Assembly: GCF_013294015.1 (NCBI RefSeq)
Contig: NZ_JABSNO010000003.1
Coordinates: 1 to 64,000 of the forward strand
Length of the DNA stretch: 64,000 nucleotides
Source: Frigoriflavimonas asaccharolytica
GTDB taxonomy: Bacteria; Bacteroidota; Bacteroidia; Flavobacteriales; Weeksellaceae
Direction of reading: 5' to 3'
Of this stretch, positions 10,932-16,228 are shown piece after piece. The position numbers and the translations under genes are program-made. Position 1 is the stretch's first letter. Each line of letters begins with the position of its first letter. Below the pieces are notes generated by a model. It made no database searches. It saw only the letters and a program-made list of their open reading frames with translations, and was not told the origin of the DNA.

Positions 10932-13187
10932 ATGAAAATAAAACTACTAATTTTTACATTTCTAATCTTTTTTTCTGTACCCATCTTTGCCCAACAAAAT
11001 GAATGGACAAAAGCTAATGAAAGAAACATTGGAAAAAAGCATGAAAGAGGTGCAATAGTTTCAAAATTTGAACTTTTTAATCTCAATTTAGAAAATCTAA
11101 AAAATCAACTGTCCAAAGCATCAGATAGAGATATTTTGCCAAGAGCAAAAGGAGTTTTAGTAAAATTTCCCACAGAAAGTGGGAGTTTTGCTACGTATGA
11201 AGTTTTTGAATCTTCAACCATGCATCCGGATTTGCAGAAAAAATATTCAGATATTAAATCTTATATGGGGGTGAATATTGAAAACCCACTTTCCACAGTT
11301 ACATTTGCTGTAGATCCCTATTTTGGATTCAACGCATCTTTTAAAAATGAAACAGATATGTTTTATTTAGAAACATATACCAAAGATAATAGCACCTATA
11401 TATTATATAATAGAAACAATGCAACTTCTCTTAGTAAATTTCAATGTTTAGTAGACGAAAACAAATTGCAAAGAGAAATTTCTACGGGAGATAATTCTCA
11501 AAAAACAGTGATAGATGGTATAAAAAGAACCTACCGTCTTGCAATTACTACTTCCACAGAGTATTCAGATTTTATGATTACTGCAGCTGGAATTAGCACA
11601 GGTACAGATGCGCAAAAAAAAGCAGCGGTTTTAGCAGGTGTAAATCTTGCAGTAGCAAGGCTAAACCAAGTTTTCGAGAATGAACTTGCCTTAAGAATGG
11701 TGCTAATACCAAATACAGACTTATTGTTTTTTCTAACTACAGACACTTTTGATGCGGCAAGTACCGGACAAATGCTTGGCGAAAACGTTACCGTCACCAA
11801 CGCAATTATTGGTGCATCTAATTATGATCTTGGCCATATCTTTTATTCTGGTGGTGGAGGTGGTTTAGCAGGTTTGGGCGTTATTTGTGGAAATGGAAAA
11901 GCTGGTGGTGTAACAGGAACTGGAAGCCCAATTGGAGATCCATTTGTGATAGATTATGTAGCCCATGAAATGGGACATCAAATGGGAGGAAACCATACGC
12001 AAAATAATAGCTGCAATAGAAGTGCAAACAATGCTATGGAACCAGGAAGTGCAAGCACAATAATGGGATATGCAGGTATTTGTGCACCAGATGTGCAAGG
12101 AAATAGTGATCCTTATTACCATGCGAATAGCATTAGAGAAATGTACACAATCCTTACAGGAAGTGGAAATTGTGGCGTAAAAACCGCAACTGGCAACAAC
12201 GAGCCAACTGCAAATCTAGGTGAAGACAAAACAATACCTAGAGATACACCTTTTGCTCTCAAAAGTATTTCTGTAGATCCCGAAGGAGATCCAATCACTT
12301 ATTCTTTTGAGCAAATGGATAAAGATGTAGCATTAATGCCTCCAAGAGGAACAAATGCTGTAGGTCCGATGTTTAGATCAATAAATCCTTCCACATCTTC
12401 CACAAGATATTTTCCGAGATTAATTACAATTGTACAAGGTTACGATCCTACAATTCTTGCAACCACAGATTTTAGAGCGTGGGAAAAACTTTCTTCGGTA
12501 AGTAGAATCTTGAATTTTTCTGTTTTAGTAAGAGATAATAATCCTTTTGGTGGACAAACCAAACGCGATGATATAAAAGTAATTGTAACTGCAGCAGCAG
12601 GTCCATTTATCGTTACTTCTCAAAATGTGGCAAATACTGTTTGGGAATTGGGAAAACCTACAACAATCACTTGGAATGTTGCCAATACCACAGCTGCACC
12701 AATAAGTACAACAGATGTTACAATACTTCTTTCTACGGATAATGGTGTCACGTTTCCTATAGTTTTAAAAGATTCTACTCCTAATAATGGAACGTACACT
12801 TTTGCAGTTCCAGAAGGTTTAGGTAAAACAGATAATGCCAGAATAATGATAAAAGCTATAGATAATATATTTTTGAATGTGAATATTAGACCTTTCAGCA
12901 TCAATTCAACAATCATAGATCCAGAAGAAACATTCACTACTACAGATATTGTAGTATATCCTGTTCCTTCTTATGATGGTTTTGTATATATTAAAGCGCA
13001 GGTTTTCAAAGATTTAGCTTATACAATTTTTGCAATGGATGGTAAATTGATAAAGCCAACTAAATTACTACCAGCAGGAAATATTTTGGAAAAAATAGAT
13101 GTTTCTGCTTATCCAATAGGTACTTACATCATTCAACTCGAAAATGAGACGGGAAGTTTTACTAAAAAATTAATCATCGCTAAATAA
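10932..13187 (+). CDS. T9SS-secreted reprolysin-like zinc metalloprotease
   Basis: A 751-residue secreted protease. It has a signal peptide (IFTFLIFFSVPIFAQQ), a propeptide-like region to about residue 190, then a metzincin catalytic domain with HEMGHQMGGNHT starting at H345. This is the HExxHxxGxxH zinc site, here with Met in the HExGH form, and MGYAG downstream could supply the Met-turn. Beta-sandwich domains follow (about 430-660). The last ~80 residues (TTDIVVYPVP to the ending SFTKKLIIAK) are a type A T9SS sorting domain, directing it across the outer membrane. A terminator follows at once. Confidence 0.9.
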   Translation: MKIKLLIFTFLIFFSVPIFAQQNEWTKANERNIGKKHERGAIVSKFELFNLNLENLKNQLSKASDRDILPRAKGVLVKFPTESGSFATYEVFESSTMHPDLQKKYSDIKSYMGVNIENPLSTVTFAVDPYFGFNASFKNETDMFYLETYTKDNSTYILYNRNNATSLSKFQCLVDENKLQREISTGDNSQKTVIDGIKRTYRLAITTSTEYSDFMITAAGISTGTDAQKKAAVLAGVNLAVARLNQVFENELALRMVLIPNTDLLFFLTTDTFDAASTGQMLGENVTVTNAIIGASNYDLGHIFYSGGGGGLAGLGVICGNGKAGGVTGTGSPIGDPFVIDYVAHEMGHQMGGNHTQNNSCNRSANNAMEPGSASTIMGYAGICAPDVQGNSDPYYHANSIREMYTILTGSGNCGVKTATGNNEPTANLGEDKTIPRDTPFALKSISVDPEGDPITYSFEQMDKDVALMPPRGTNAVGPMFRSINPSTSSTRYFPRLITIVQGYDPTILATTDFRAWEKLSSVSRILNFSVLVRDNNPFGGQTKRDDIKVIVTAAAGPFIVTSQNVANTVWELGKPTTITWNVANTTAAPISTTDVTILLSTDNGVTFPIVLKDSTPNNGTYTFAVPEGLGKTDNARIMIKAIDNIFLNVNIRPFSINSTIIDPEETFTTTDIVVYPVPSYDGFVYIKAQVFKDLAYTIFAMDGKLIKPTKLLPAGNILEKIDVSAYPIGTYIIQLENETGSFTKKLIIAK

Positions 13188-13192
13188 ATTTC

Positions 13193-13227
13193 TAAATCCT
13201 TTCATTTTTTTGAAAGGATTTTTTTTA
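13193..13227 (+). terminator. Terminator after the metalloprotease gene
   Basis: AAATCCTTTCA pairs with TGAAAGGATTT around a T-rich loop and is followed by a run of T. Confidence 0.87.
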
Positions 13228-13249: not shown

Positions 13250-14320
13250 ATGAAATATTTTTTTTTATTTTCTTTATTAATAAGCCATAGCCTATTTTCA
13301 CAAAATAAAATAGAACTCACAGATGAAATTGCTTCCAAATTGGCTGAAAAACCAATACACTGTATTTCCCAAGAATACCCGAATAAAACAGCACACATTA
13401 TTAATAATCCTAATGAAGCAGCTTTATCTCCTGCACAATTGCATCCCGCTTTTTTTGGCTGTTTTGATTGGCATTCTTCCGTTCATGGACATTGGATGCT
13501 AATAAAAATTTTAAAAGCAAAACCAAATATTAAAAATGCTGCCGAAATATTTAAAATCTTAGAAAATACTTTCCAAGCAGATAAAATGAATGCCGAAGCA
13601 AATTACTTCACCAAGTATGAAATTGCACAAAATTTTGAAAGAACTTACGGTTGGGCTTGGCTTCTAAAATTAGATGAAGAATTGGCAACTTGGGACAATC
13701 CGCAAGCCAAAATTTGGCATCAAAATATGAAACCACTCACCAACGAAATTTTGAGATTGTGGAAAGAATATCTTCCAAAACAAACTTATCCAAATAGAAC
13801 TGGTGTACATCCAAATACCGCTTTTGCTATGGCTTTTGCAATAGATTGGGCAAGAGCAACCAACGACAAAACTTTTGAAAATGAACTGATAGAGAAGTCC
13901 AAATATTTTTATTTAAAAGATGAAAAAACACCTGCATTTCTAGAACCAGATGGCAGCGATTTCTTCTCACCAAGTCTGCAAATCGCAGATTTGATGCGCC
14001 GTATTTTACCTCAAAAAGAATTTGCAACTTGGTTTGATAAATTTTACGAAGAAAGAAGCATTAAGAATATTTCTCAAACACCAATTATCAGCGATATTAA
14101 TGATTTTCAAACAGTCCATTTGGTTGGTTTATCTTTCACAAAAGCTTGGTGTATGAAGGGAATTTCTGACGCTCTACCCAATAATCATCCAAAGAAAATT
14201 GAGTTGAAAAAAACAGCAGACATTTTTCTGAATAATGCATTACCATTAGTTTTCGAAGGCAATTATGGCGGAGATCATTGGTTGGCAAGTTTTGCCGTGT
14301 ACGCACTTTCTCAGAAATAG
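13250..14320 (+). CDS. DUF2891 family secreted protein
   Basis: A 356-residue protein with a signal peptide (MKYFFLFSLLISHSLFSQ). The mature part carries the DUF2891 signature HPAFFGCFDWHSSVHGHWML (residues about 64-83). It also has TGVHPNTAFAM, EPDGSDFFSPSLQIADLMRR and the C-terminal GGDHWLASFAVYAL. The repeated helical pattern and conserved His, Asp and Trp residues look like an alpha/alpha-barrel enzyme, but no activity is established for the family. The dikinase-like lipoprotein gene begins 24 bp after its stop on the same strand, so the two are probably cotranscribed. Confidence 0.85.
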   Translation: MKYFFLFSLLISHSLFSQNKIELTDEIASKLAEKPIHCISQEYPNKTAHIINNPNEAALSPAQLHPAFFGCFDWHSSVHGHWMLIKILKAKPNIKNAAEIFKILENTFQADKMNAEANYFTKYEIAQNFERTYGWAWLLKLDEELATWDNPQAKIWHQNMKPLTNEILRLWKEYLPKQTYPNRTGVHPNTAFAMAFAIDWARATNDKTFENELIEKSKYFYLKDEKTPAFLEPDGSDFFSPSLQIADLMRRILPQKEFATWFDKFYEERSIKNISQTPIISDINDFQTVHLVGLSFTKAWCMKGISDALPNNHPKKIELKKTADIFLNNALPLVFEGNYGGDHWLASFAVYALSQK

Positions 14321-14344
14321 TAGTATAAAATATCAAATTTAAAA

Positions 14345-16228
14345 ATGAAAAAATTTTTATTCGTATTATCAATATTCATATTTACAATTTCTTGCGCTCA
14401 AAAAGATTTTCAAAATACAATTTCAGATAAAGAAGAATTTCTCAAACTTGCAGGAAAGCCACTTACAGATAAGTTTACCAACATTAAGTCTGTGAAAATA
14501 GTGTACGATTTTCCTGCAAAAAAACTGTACTTTTTTAATAGTGTGAAATTTACATATCACAAAGATTTTTGCGAGCAGATTTTAAAATTCAATCCTGCTC
14601 ATGAAAATTTTAATGCTGTTAGTTATAATGCCACAAACAAACGAACGTATCTTCTGGCAAATCTTAATTTTATAGAGAAATCTGATGATTGGACTGTAGA
14701 ATTGGCAGCTTCAGACGAAATGAATTCGCAAATGCTTCAGTTTTTTTTTAATGAAATAAAGAAAAATGTGTACTTCGGCGAAAAATTGAAGTTTTATTTG
14801 AATACACCAAGATTAATTGCCGAAAACGAAAAAATACCCTTTAAAATTCCTGTAGTATTTTCAGATTTTATTTTCCAAAATCTTACAGAGCAATCTATAC
14901 AAAAGGGTAGTGCAATCGGAATTTTAAAGTTTTATGATTTAAAAAACAAAGCAGATTTCTATCCCAATGAAAATGAAATAATCATCATCAATAAAACGCC
15001 AGAAATAATTCCTGATGTGAAAGCGATTGTGGTTACAGAGTTTCAAACACCATTAAGTCATTTAGTTTTATTAGCCAAAAACCGGAAAATACCTTTGTAT
15101 GTTGATAAAACTGCATTTGAAAATAAAAAATTTAAAAATTTAGCGGGCAAAAATGTAGAAATGTCAGTTTCTGAAAATGATTATAAAATTGCCGAAACTA
15201 CCAAACCAATGATCATCGATAAAAAGAAAGCGAAAATAATATTACAAAAAAATTTAACGGTAAAAAATATCCTAGATTTAAACCTAAATTTACCTGCAAA
15301 TCCACAAAACATTATCGGTTCGAAAGCTTCAAATTTAGCTTATTTAAAAATTATTGAAAAAAATCTTAAATCTTTCAAAACACCAGAATATGCTTATGCA
15401 ATACCGTTTTATTATTATGATGAGCACATTAAAAATAACCAATTAGAAAATAAAATTTCAGAGATTTTAAGCTTACCAAAAAATTCTGAGCAGATTAAAA
15501 TTAAATTAAAAGAACTTCGAAAATCCATAAAATCTTTTAAAGTAAATCCAGAACTTTTGGCTTTGGTATATGAGAAACTTAATGCACAAAGTGAATTTAA
15601 AAAATTTAAATTCCGTTCTTCCACCAATTCGGAAGATTTGGATGGCTTTAATGGTGCAGGTTTGTATGATTCTAAATCTGCAACTTTAGGCGATTCGGAA
15701 AAAACTATCGAAAAAGCGATTGTAGAAGTTTGGGCGAGTTTTTGGAATGAAAGAGCTTTCCGAGAGCGAGAAATTTATAATATTGATCAGCTATCTGGTG
15801 CAATGGGAATTTTAATTCACAGGTCTTTTCCAGATGAATTGGCAAATGGCGTTTTGATTACAAAAAATATTTATAGAGAAAAATATAAAGGAATTACTGT
15901 AAATGTACAAAAGGGAGAAAACTCTGTGGTAATGCCAGATGATGGCGTTACTTGTGATGAATTCTATGCGCACAATTTTAATATTGATAATTATAAAATC
16001 AGTGTAGATTATCGATCAACCTCAAATTTAAATGATAAAAAACCAGTGTTAAGTTTAGCCGAAATAGAAGGTTTATTTAAATTATCGCCAAAAATAGAGC
16101 AGCAATTATTTAATATTTGGAAGAAAAACAAAGTCTCTACCAAAAAAATGCCTTTAGATATTGAATTCAAAATTGTGGGCACCAAGCGAACACTTTACAT
16201 CAAACAAGCGAGAGCATATATTGACTAA
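14345..16228 (+). CDS. Lipoprotein with swivelling phosphohistidine domain and PEP/pyruvate-dikinase ATP-grasp domain
   Basis: A 627-residue protein. A lipoprotein signal (FIFTISC, Cys17) predicts export and membrane anchoring. Residues about 185-285 resemble the PEP-utiliser swivelling domain, with TPLSHLVLLAKNRKIPLYV placing H239 where the phosphohistidine sits (family TSHxAIxARxxxIP). Residues about 320-627 form a PPDK_N ATP-grasp: GSKASNLAYL, FRSSTNSEDLDGFNGAGLYD and a C-terminal IEFKIVGTKRTLYIKQARAY. No PEP barrel is present. The order His domain then ATP-grasp is that of glucan water dikinases, the reverse of PEP synthase. The substrate is unknown, and export of an ATP-dependent enzyme is odd. 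The stop overlaps the convergent DUF4956 gene by 4 bp. Confidence 0.8.
   Translation: MKKFLFVLSIFIFTISCAQKDFQNTISDKEEFLKLAGKPLTDKFTNIKSVKIVYDFPAKKLYFFNSVKFTYHKDFCEQILKFNPAHENFNAVSYNATNKRTYLLANLNFIEKSDDWTVELAASDEMNSQMLQFFFNEIKKNVYFGEKLKFYLNTPRLIAENEKIPFKIPVVFSDFIFQNLTEQSIQKGSAIGILKFYDLKNKADFYPNENEIIIINKTPEIIPDVKAIVVTEFQTPLSHLVLLAKNRKIPLYVDKTAFENKKFKNLAGKNVEMSVSENDYKIAETTKPMIIDKKKAKIILQKNLTVKNILDLNLNLPANPQNIIGSKASNLAYLKIIEKNLKSFKTPEYAYAIPFYYYDEHIKNNQLENKISEILSLPKNSEQIKIKLKELRKSIKSFKVNPELLALVYEKLNAQSEFKKFKFRSSTNSEDLDGFNGAGLYDSKSATLGDSEKTIEKAIVEVWASFWNERAFREREIYNIDQLSGAMGILIHRSFPDELANGVLITKNIYREKYKGITVNVQKGENSVVMPDDGVTCDEFYAHNFNIDNYKISVDYRSTSNLNDKKPVLSLAEIEGLFKLSPKIEQQLFNIWKKNKVSTKKMPLDIEFKIVGTKRTLYIKQARAYID

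Follow-up and report, generated by a model that had tools for sequence, protein, structure and literature searches.

A putatively exported, reordered dikinase-like protein and its likely genetic partner, a DUF4956 membrane protein

Introduction

In glucan water dikinases (GWD), a His domain is followed by a C-terminal ATP-grasp. PEP synthase and PPDK show another order, with the ATP-grasp first, then the His domain and finally a PEP/pyruvate TIM barrel (PF01326, PF00391 and PF02896). Swivel domains carry a glycine-rich loop of the form T/SxxGGxxxH (PMC12167813). Barrel-free dikinase chemistry combined with a dedicated acceptor domain is found in rifampin phosphotransferase (RPH) and in two-component small-molecule dikinases such as HpeHI (PMC4844700, PMC12167813). 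Other phosphotransferases are genetically tied to DUF4956 membrane proteins, and a set of CotH, polyphosphate polymerase and DUF4956 genes stands next to Gram-positive pel loci (PMC7112168). Searches of open-licence papers gave no work on exported dikinases or on what DUF4956 does.

Here we analyze a locus in a 64,000-nucleotide stretch of DNA from Frigoriflavimonas asaccharolytica, in the following called the window. Its host genome of 3.43 Mb is kin to Epilithonimonas and Chryseobacterium. A preliminary description of the locus had proposed an exported dikinase-like lipoprotein that acts together with a neighboring DUF2891 protein on an extracytoplasmic molecule. Table 1 collects the features discussed below.

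Table 1. Position and supporting evidence of features at the dikinase locus and at loci of the related 970-aa type
Feature	Position	Strand	Evidence or remark
Intrinsic-terminator-like hairpin, 5' of DUF2891	13194..13221	+	11-pair stem with T-run
Secreted DUF2891 protein, 356 aa	13250..14320	+	PF11199, 429.9 bits; resident neighbor
Exported dikinase-like protein, 627 aa	14345..16228	+	ORF; PPDK_N 82 bits; full-length orthologs 47–71% identical
Signal peptide, residues 1–19 (..FTISCAQ), probably signal peptidase I type	14345..14401	+	N-terminal hydrophobic stretch in 14/14 orthologs
N-terminal domain, residues 20–184	14402..14896	+	No Pfam match; candidate acceptor-binding domain
Swivelling phospho-His-like domain, residues 185–285	14897..15199	+	Combined profile versus PpsA; GWD1_pHisD E 0.0079
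H239 codon, candidate phospho-accepting His (TPLSH)	15059..15061	+	SH invariant; aligns with PpsA catalytic His
PPDK_N ATP-grasp domain, residues 322–623	15308..16213	+	E 1.9e-21 against PpsA (hhalign); catalytic residues unchanged across 12 orthologs
DUF4956 membrane protein, 185 aa	16225..16782	-	PF16316, 91.5 bits; convergent with dikinase
970-aa type with Beta-lactamase2 and TLC-like neighbors	L045, L046, L048, L049, L050, L052, L137		

Results

Domain order and catalytic residues

In the 627-aa protein, PPDK_N scored far above its Pfam cut-off of 27 bits, and nothing else passed threshold. This bears out the ATP-grasp of the preliminary description; the motifs TPLSHLVLLAKN and FRSSTNSEDLDGFNGAGLYD named there are both present. 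When the PDB was searched with the single sequence (phmmer), nothing real was matched; a profile of the family matched PEP synthases, and the ortholog-family profile aligned with genuine PpsA across the whole ATP-grasp. This profile alignment places K327 (GSKASN), R424 (FRSST), D605 and E607 (PLDIEF) and Q621 and R623 (IKQAR) on PpsA catalytic positions, which we take to correspond to K22, R92, D321, E323, Q335 and R337 in PPDK from Clostridium symbiosum. These six residues and H239, whose conservation the preliminary description had proposed to check, are invariant in an alignment of 12 orthologs that are 47–71% identical to the window protein. The PEP barrel is absent, as had been claimed, since neither the window protein nor any of the 12 orthologs matched PEP-utilizers_C (PF02896) in Pfam. 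Also the claimed order, His domain before ATP-grasp, holds.

Within the host genome this protein is the sole PPDK_N match; a canonical PEP synthase or PPDK was not found. The viral contigs searched held no relative, and the plasmids searched gave weak PPDK_N matches only. An AlphaFold2 model of the full-length protein reached a pLDDT of 37 from a shallow input alignment of the window protein and three close orthologs and was uninformative. The profile and ortholog comparisons strongly support a reordered dikinase-like protein of the PpsA/PPDK/GWD superfamily with conserved catalytic residues.

The His domain is more divergent. Its best Pfam match, GWD1_pHisD, reached 16.2 bits (E 0.0079), under the cut-off of 27, and was found weakly in five of the 12 orthologs. 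We hence pooled 32 His domains from three architectures, and this profile aligned with the PpsA His domain with a score of 37.2 (E 8.3e-6), compared to a mean of 11.5 and a maximum of 21.3 for 200 column-shuffled controls. In the alignment H239 superposes on the PpsA catalytic His, and the SH motif is invariant in all 32 homologs. The window-type profile alone was not convincing, with a score of 17.7 against a shuffled 95th percentile of 15.9 and a maximum of 21.6. Homology to the PpsA His domain is supported by the combined profile. Of the swivelling domain with H239 as first described, the assignment hence stands on the pooled comparison, whereas the domain itself is too divergent to pass the Pfam threshold. 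AlphaFold2 modeled it alone at a pLDDT of 50, again from the window protein and three close orthologs as shallow input, and Foldseek matched this model to nothing at E ≤ 0.001, a result without meaning for so poor a model.

Where swivel domains have T/SxxGGxxxH, the window protein has TEFQTPLSH, and with this replacement of the glycine-rich loop the phosphotransfer chemistry could differ. Loss of the loop, the strong divergence of the His domain and the unusual compartment would also fit a catalytically dead relative whose role at the surface is structural or to bind a ligand. We give this reading a small chance, because H239 and the six ATP-grasp residues are invariant among the 12 orthologs. 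In addition, three architectures have kept both the SH motif and the signatures of the ATP-grasp at about 25% identity.

The weak GWD1_pHisD similarity and the domain order shared with GWD make a glycan substrate possible. An exported GWD-like kinase would then directly phosphorylate a polysaccharide, be it capsule, LPS or a dietary glycan, much as the plant enzyme acts on starch. However, the GWD1_pHisD match lies under the Pfam gathering score, and Pfam found no carbohydrate-binding module in the window protein or the 12 orthologs, a search that a diverged module could escape. Moreover, no recurrent glycan-utilization or capsule gene was noticed beside the orthologs, and the link to DUF2891 was refuted (see below). 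We therefore consider a glycan kinase unlikely.

Residues 20–184 in front of the His domain contain positions invariant in 12 orthologs, with the pattern KSVKIVYD..KLYFFNS....YH..F. They are related to the region preceding the His domain in homologs with type IX secretion (T9SS) tails (hhalign E 1.9e-4). No recognized substrate-binding fold was found in this domain, which is a candidate for binding the acceptor.

Export and related secreted architectures

Sec signal peptides, judged by inspection and hydropathy, are present at the N-terminus in all 14 orthologs, and three remote homologs (L044, L131 and L133) end in Por_Secre_tail domains, which sort proteins for type IX secretion. Export of the dikinase-like protein, as initially proposed, is well supported by these signals. 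The lipoprotein signal at Cys17 was not supported. Its context TISC lacks a hydrophobic residue at −3, none of the other orthologs carries a Cys where Cys17 aligns, and most of their signal peptides end in ..FAQK or ..SAQR, which are SPI-type sites. The signal peptide of the window protein is thus probably of the signal peptidase I type, and lipidation would at most be a peculiarity of this one species.

Two further secreted architectures were found. T9SS-tailed homologs of about 1300–1456 aa occur in marine Flavobacteriales (L128 to L134), and in all seven loci an exported histidine-phosphatase-family gene (FTIYLVRHSEKD) lies directly 5' of the homolog, Pfam-confirmed in three. In one of these loci (L130:4687-8604, genome G450), the homolog is split by an in-frame stop; the assembly has ambiguous bases, and a broken gene and an error of sequencing are equally likely causes. 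The second group, of about 970–1040 aa, keeps the His domain before the ATP-grasp, has an unrelated N-terminal region with a DPRGPY..WFC.DGS motif and shows N-terminal signals in most members. Here, a Beta-lactamase2-family gene follows in nine of ten loci, and in seven of ten the neighbor is a large MFS/TLC-like protein that contains HEAT repeats. PF03219 (TLC ATP/ADP transporter) was above cut-off in six of these seven proteins, and the best match of known structure was ADP,ATP carrier protein 1, with a weak E of 0.022. The phosphatase and the TLC-like neighbors are leads toward donor supply, not proof of it.

The secreted or T9SS-tailed homologs and the phosphatase gene in front of the marine type could also point to a scavenger or sensor that uses ATP released by other cells and passes the phosphoryl group from the phospho-His to water or a small molecule. 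This strikes us as quite improbable. The window lineage has no histidine-phosphatase neighbor, a dikinase of several domains looks expensive if hydrolysis were its whole task, and the DUF4956 linkage described below would be left unexplained.

DUF2891, a resident neighbor

Both ORFs lie where the preliminary description had placed them, on the plus strand with 24 bp between them. The DUF2891 protein had been described as having no known activity; in the literature searched we indeed found none, but solved structures of homologs exist (8ieu, 8iev). The terminator-like hairpin 5' of DUF2891 suggests that DUF2891 and the dikinase could share one transcription unit in the window. It is the sole such site in the scanned region, a number not above chance, and scans for sigma-70-type and Bacteroidota-type promoters gave matches near the chance number.

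A dikinase–DUF2891 module acting jointly on an extracytoplasmic molecule would agree with the spacing, the co-orientation and the position of the hairpin. The comparative data leave it exceedingly improbable. DUF2891 is absent beside the dikinase at all 13 ortholog loci outside the window, and in 120 genomes of the family the two genes occur without correlation, DUF2891 in 69 and the dikinase in three, of which the other two (G053 and G110) lack DUF2891. L002 and L003 carry the dikinase and DUF4956 genes near prfC without DUF2891. In a related genome, locus L160 has the order acyl-CoA dehydrogenase, small ORF, DUF2891, prfC and next ORF; between DUF2891 and prfC there is one unrelated ORF and neither dikinase nor DUF4956. 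L160 is hence an empty-site comparison for the dikinase–DUF4956 pair, with DUF2891 in the same syntenic place. By adjacency, occurrence and this synteny DUF2891 is rejected as a partner, and it is an incidental, resident neighbor.

Further upstream, the window encodes a reprolysin-like metalloprotease (10932-13187) that is secreted and bears a sorting tail for T9SS. This gene and the 165-aa ORF preceding it also adjoin DUF2891 in L162, so this neighborhood exists without the dikinase.

DUF4956 as genetic partner

On its other side, the dikinase ORF overlaps the end of the DUF4956 ORF by 4 bp, tail-to-tail. In all 14 ortholog loci a DUF4956 gene is directly adjacent and convergent. Of 296 genomes compared within the order, exactly nine have window-type DUF4956 (260–292 bits, the next-best DUF4956 scoring 74 bits). 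They are the same nine that carry dikinase orthologs, a co-occurrence whose weight is limited by kinship among the genomes. The protein trees of both families are broadly congruent. Free of the kinship weakness are the patchy distribution and a comparison with the housekeeping protein PrfC. Window PrfC is 77–78% identical to its Flavobacterium counterparts and 60% to that of G135, a genome outside the order. For the dikinase these values are 47–48% and 55–56%, for DUF4956 35–37% and 56%, respectively. As the identities are reversed with respect to PrfC, dikinase and DUF4956 seem to have moved as a unit, and the pair was apparently transferred jointly. Loss, or evolution at unequal rates, could contribute as well. 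The convergent genes form no operon; the link is hence genomic and not transcriptional. Gene order and distribution strongly support that the true partner of the dikinase is this DUF4956 gene, missed in the preliminary description.

In 20 fetched loci with other DUF4956 genes from Bacteroidota (L086 to L105), a VTC polyphosphate polymerase gene adjoins in 14, as judged from scanned representatives with the remaining neighbors assigned by clustering. Genes for CotH kinase (several loci) and for a DUF2490 outer-membrane protein also cluster with DUF4956, in varying combinations. L098 and L103 have an HlyD/biotin-lipoyl-type, membrane-fusion-like gene beside DUF4956 instead. The DUF4956 genes linked to VTC and CotH belong to other, more distant subfamilies than the window type, and in the ortholog neighborhoods, whose neighbors were Pfam-scanned in part, neither VTC nor CotH was recognized and no such family was recurrent. 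DUF4956 is thus repeatedly tied to phosphotransferases, and here it is tied to a dikinase. By analogy, these associations suggest an extracytoplasmic phosphorylation system, in which DUF4956 might supply or gate the phosphoryl donor.

Discussion

Our favored explanation is a Sec-exported dikinase that uses H239 and, together with DUF4956, phosphorylates an extracytoplasmic acceptor. The donor bound by the ATP-grasp would be a nucleoside triphosphate or a different phosphoanhydride, from which a phosphoryl or pyrophosphoryl group would move to H239. The phosphorylated His domain might then swing over to the N-terminal domain and its bound acceptor. This acceptor, in the periplasm or on the surface of the cell, would become phosphorylated. 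DUF4956, as an inner-membrane protein, may provide the donor or acceptor of the phosphoryl group at the membrane or control it, and other DUF4956 proteins may do likewise for polyphosphate polymerases of the VTC type and for CotH kinases. ATP is not normally at hand outside the cytoplasm, and this weighs against the proposal. In the explanation as a whole we place about as much belief as doubt. Its parts differ in strength: homology, domain order, export, residue conservation and the DUF4956 linkage are strongly supported by the comparisons above, whereas we infer activity, donor, acceptor and the role of DUF4956.

We may further speculate about an extracytoplasmic phosphorylation system of Bacteroidota, in which exported dikinases would be fed across the inner membrane by their partners, in parallel to VTC–DUF4956–CotH sets. 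DUF4956 would then partner the window type and the TLC ATP/ADP-carrier-like protein the 970-aa exported type. This wider proposal is tentative, and on balance we doubt it. Exported CotH kinases, too, raise the question of how enzymes with an apparent need for ATP could function beyond the bacterial cytoplasm. Concrete genes for testing it come from this exported dikinase family, whose catalytic residues are intact and which comprises at least three secreted architectures, each with its own recurrent partner gene. With the partner assignment corrected from DUF2891 to DUF4956, this widespread membrane protein gains a second independent tie to a phosphotransferase.

In comparison with PEP synthase and PPDK, the window protein has the full ATP-grasp catalytic set and a swivelling His domain. 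In contrast to them, it is exported, its His domain comes first, the glycine-rich loop before the His is replaced, and there is no PEP/pyruvate barrel. Judged by barrel and domain order, it is therefore no PEP synthase or PPDK. With GWD/PWD (PF22973 and PF01326) it shares the order of His domain and C-terminal ATP-grasp together with the weak GWD1_pHisD similarity, but it is bacterial, exported and, with 627 aa, much shorter. Given the sub-threshold GWD1_pHisD score, and with no carbohydrate-binding module among its Pfam matches, it cannot be assigned to GWD. Like RPH and HpeHI, it would combine barrel-free dikinase chemistry with a dedicated acceptor domain; its N-terminal domain showed no detectable similarity to either of them. 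In RPH, however, the ATP-grasp leads and the His domain stands at the end, and HpeHI has its parts on two separate proteins (PMC12167813). Moreover, the window protein is predicted to be exported, whereas no export is described for RPH and HpeHI in these reports (PMC4844700, PMC12167813). As in the VTC–DUF4956–CotH sets (PMC7112168), a DUF4956 membrane protein is genetically tied to a phosphotransferase, but here the partner is a PpsA-type dikinase in convergent orientation without an operon. Most likely, the window protein thus works like a dikinase while standing outside the PEP synthase/PPDK and GWD classes.
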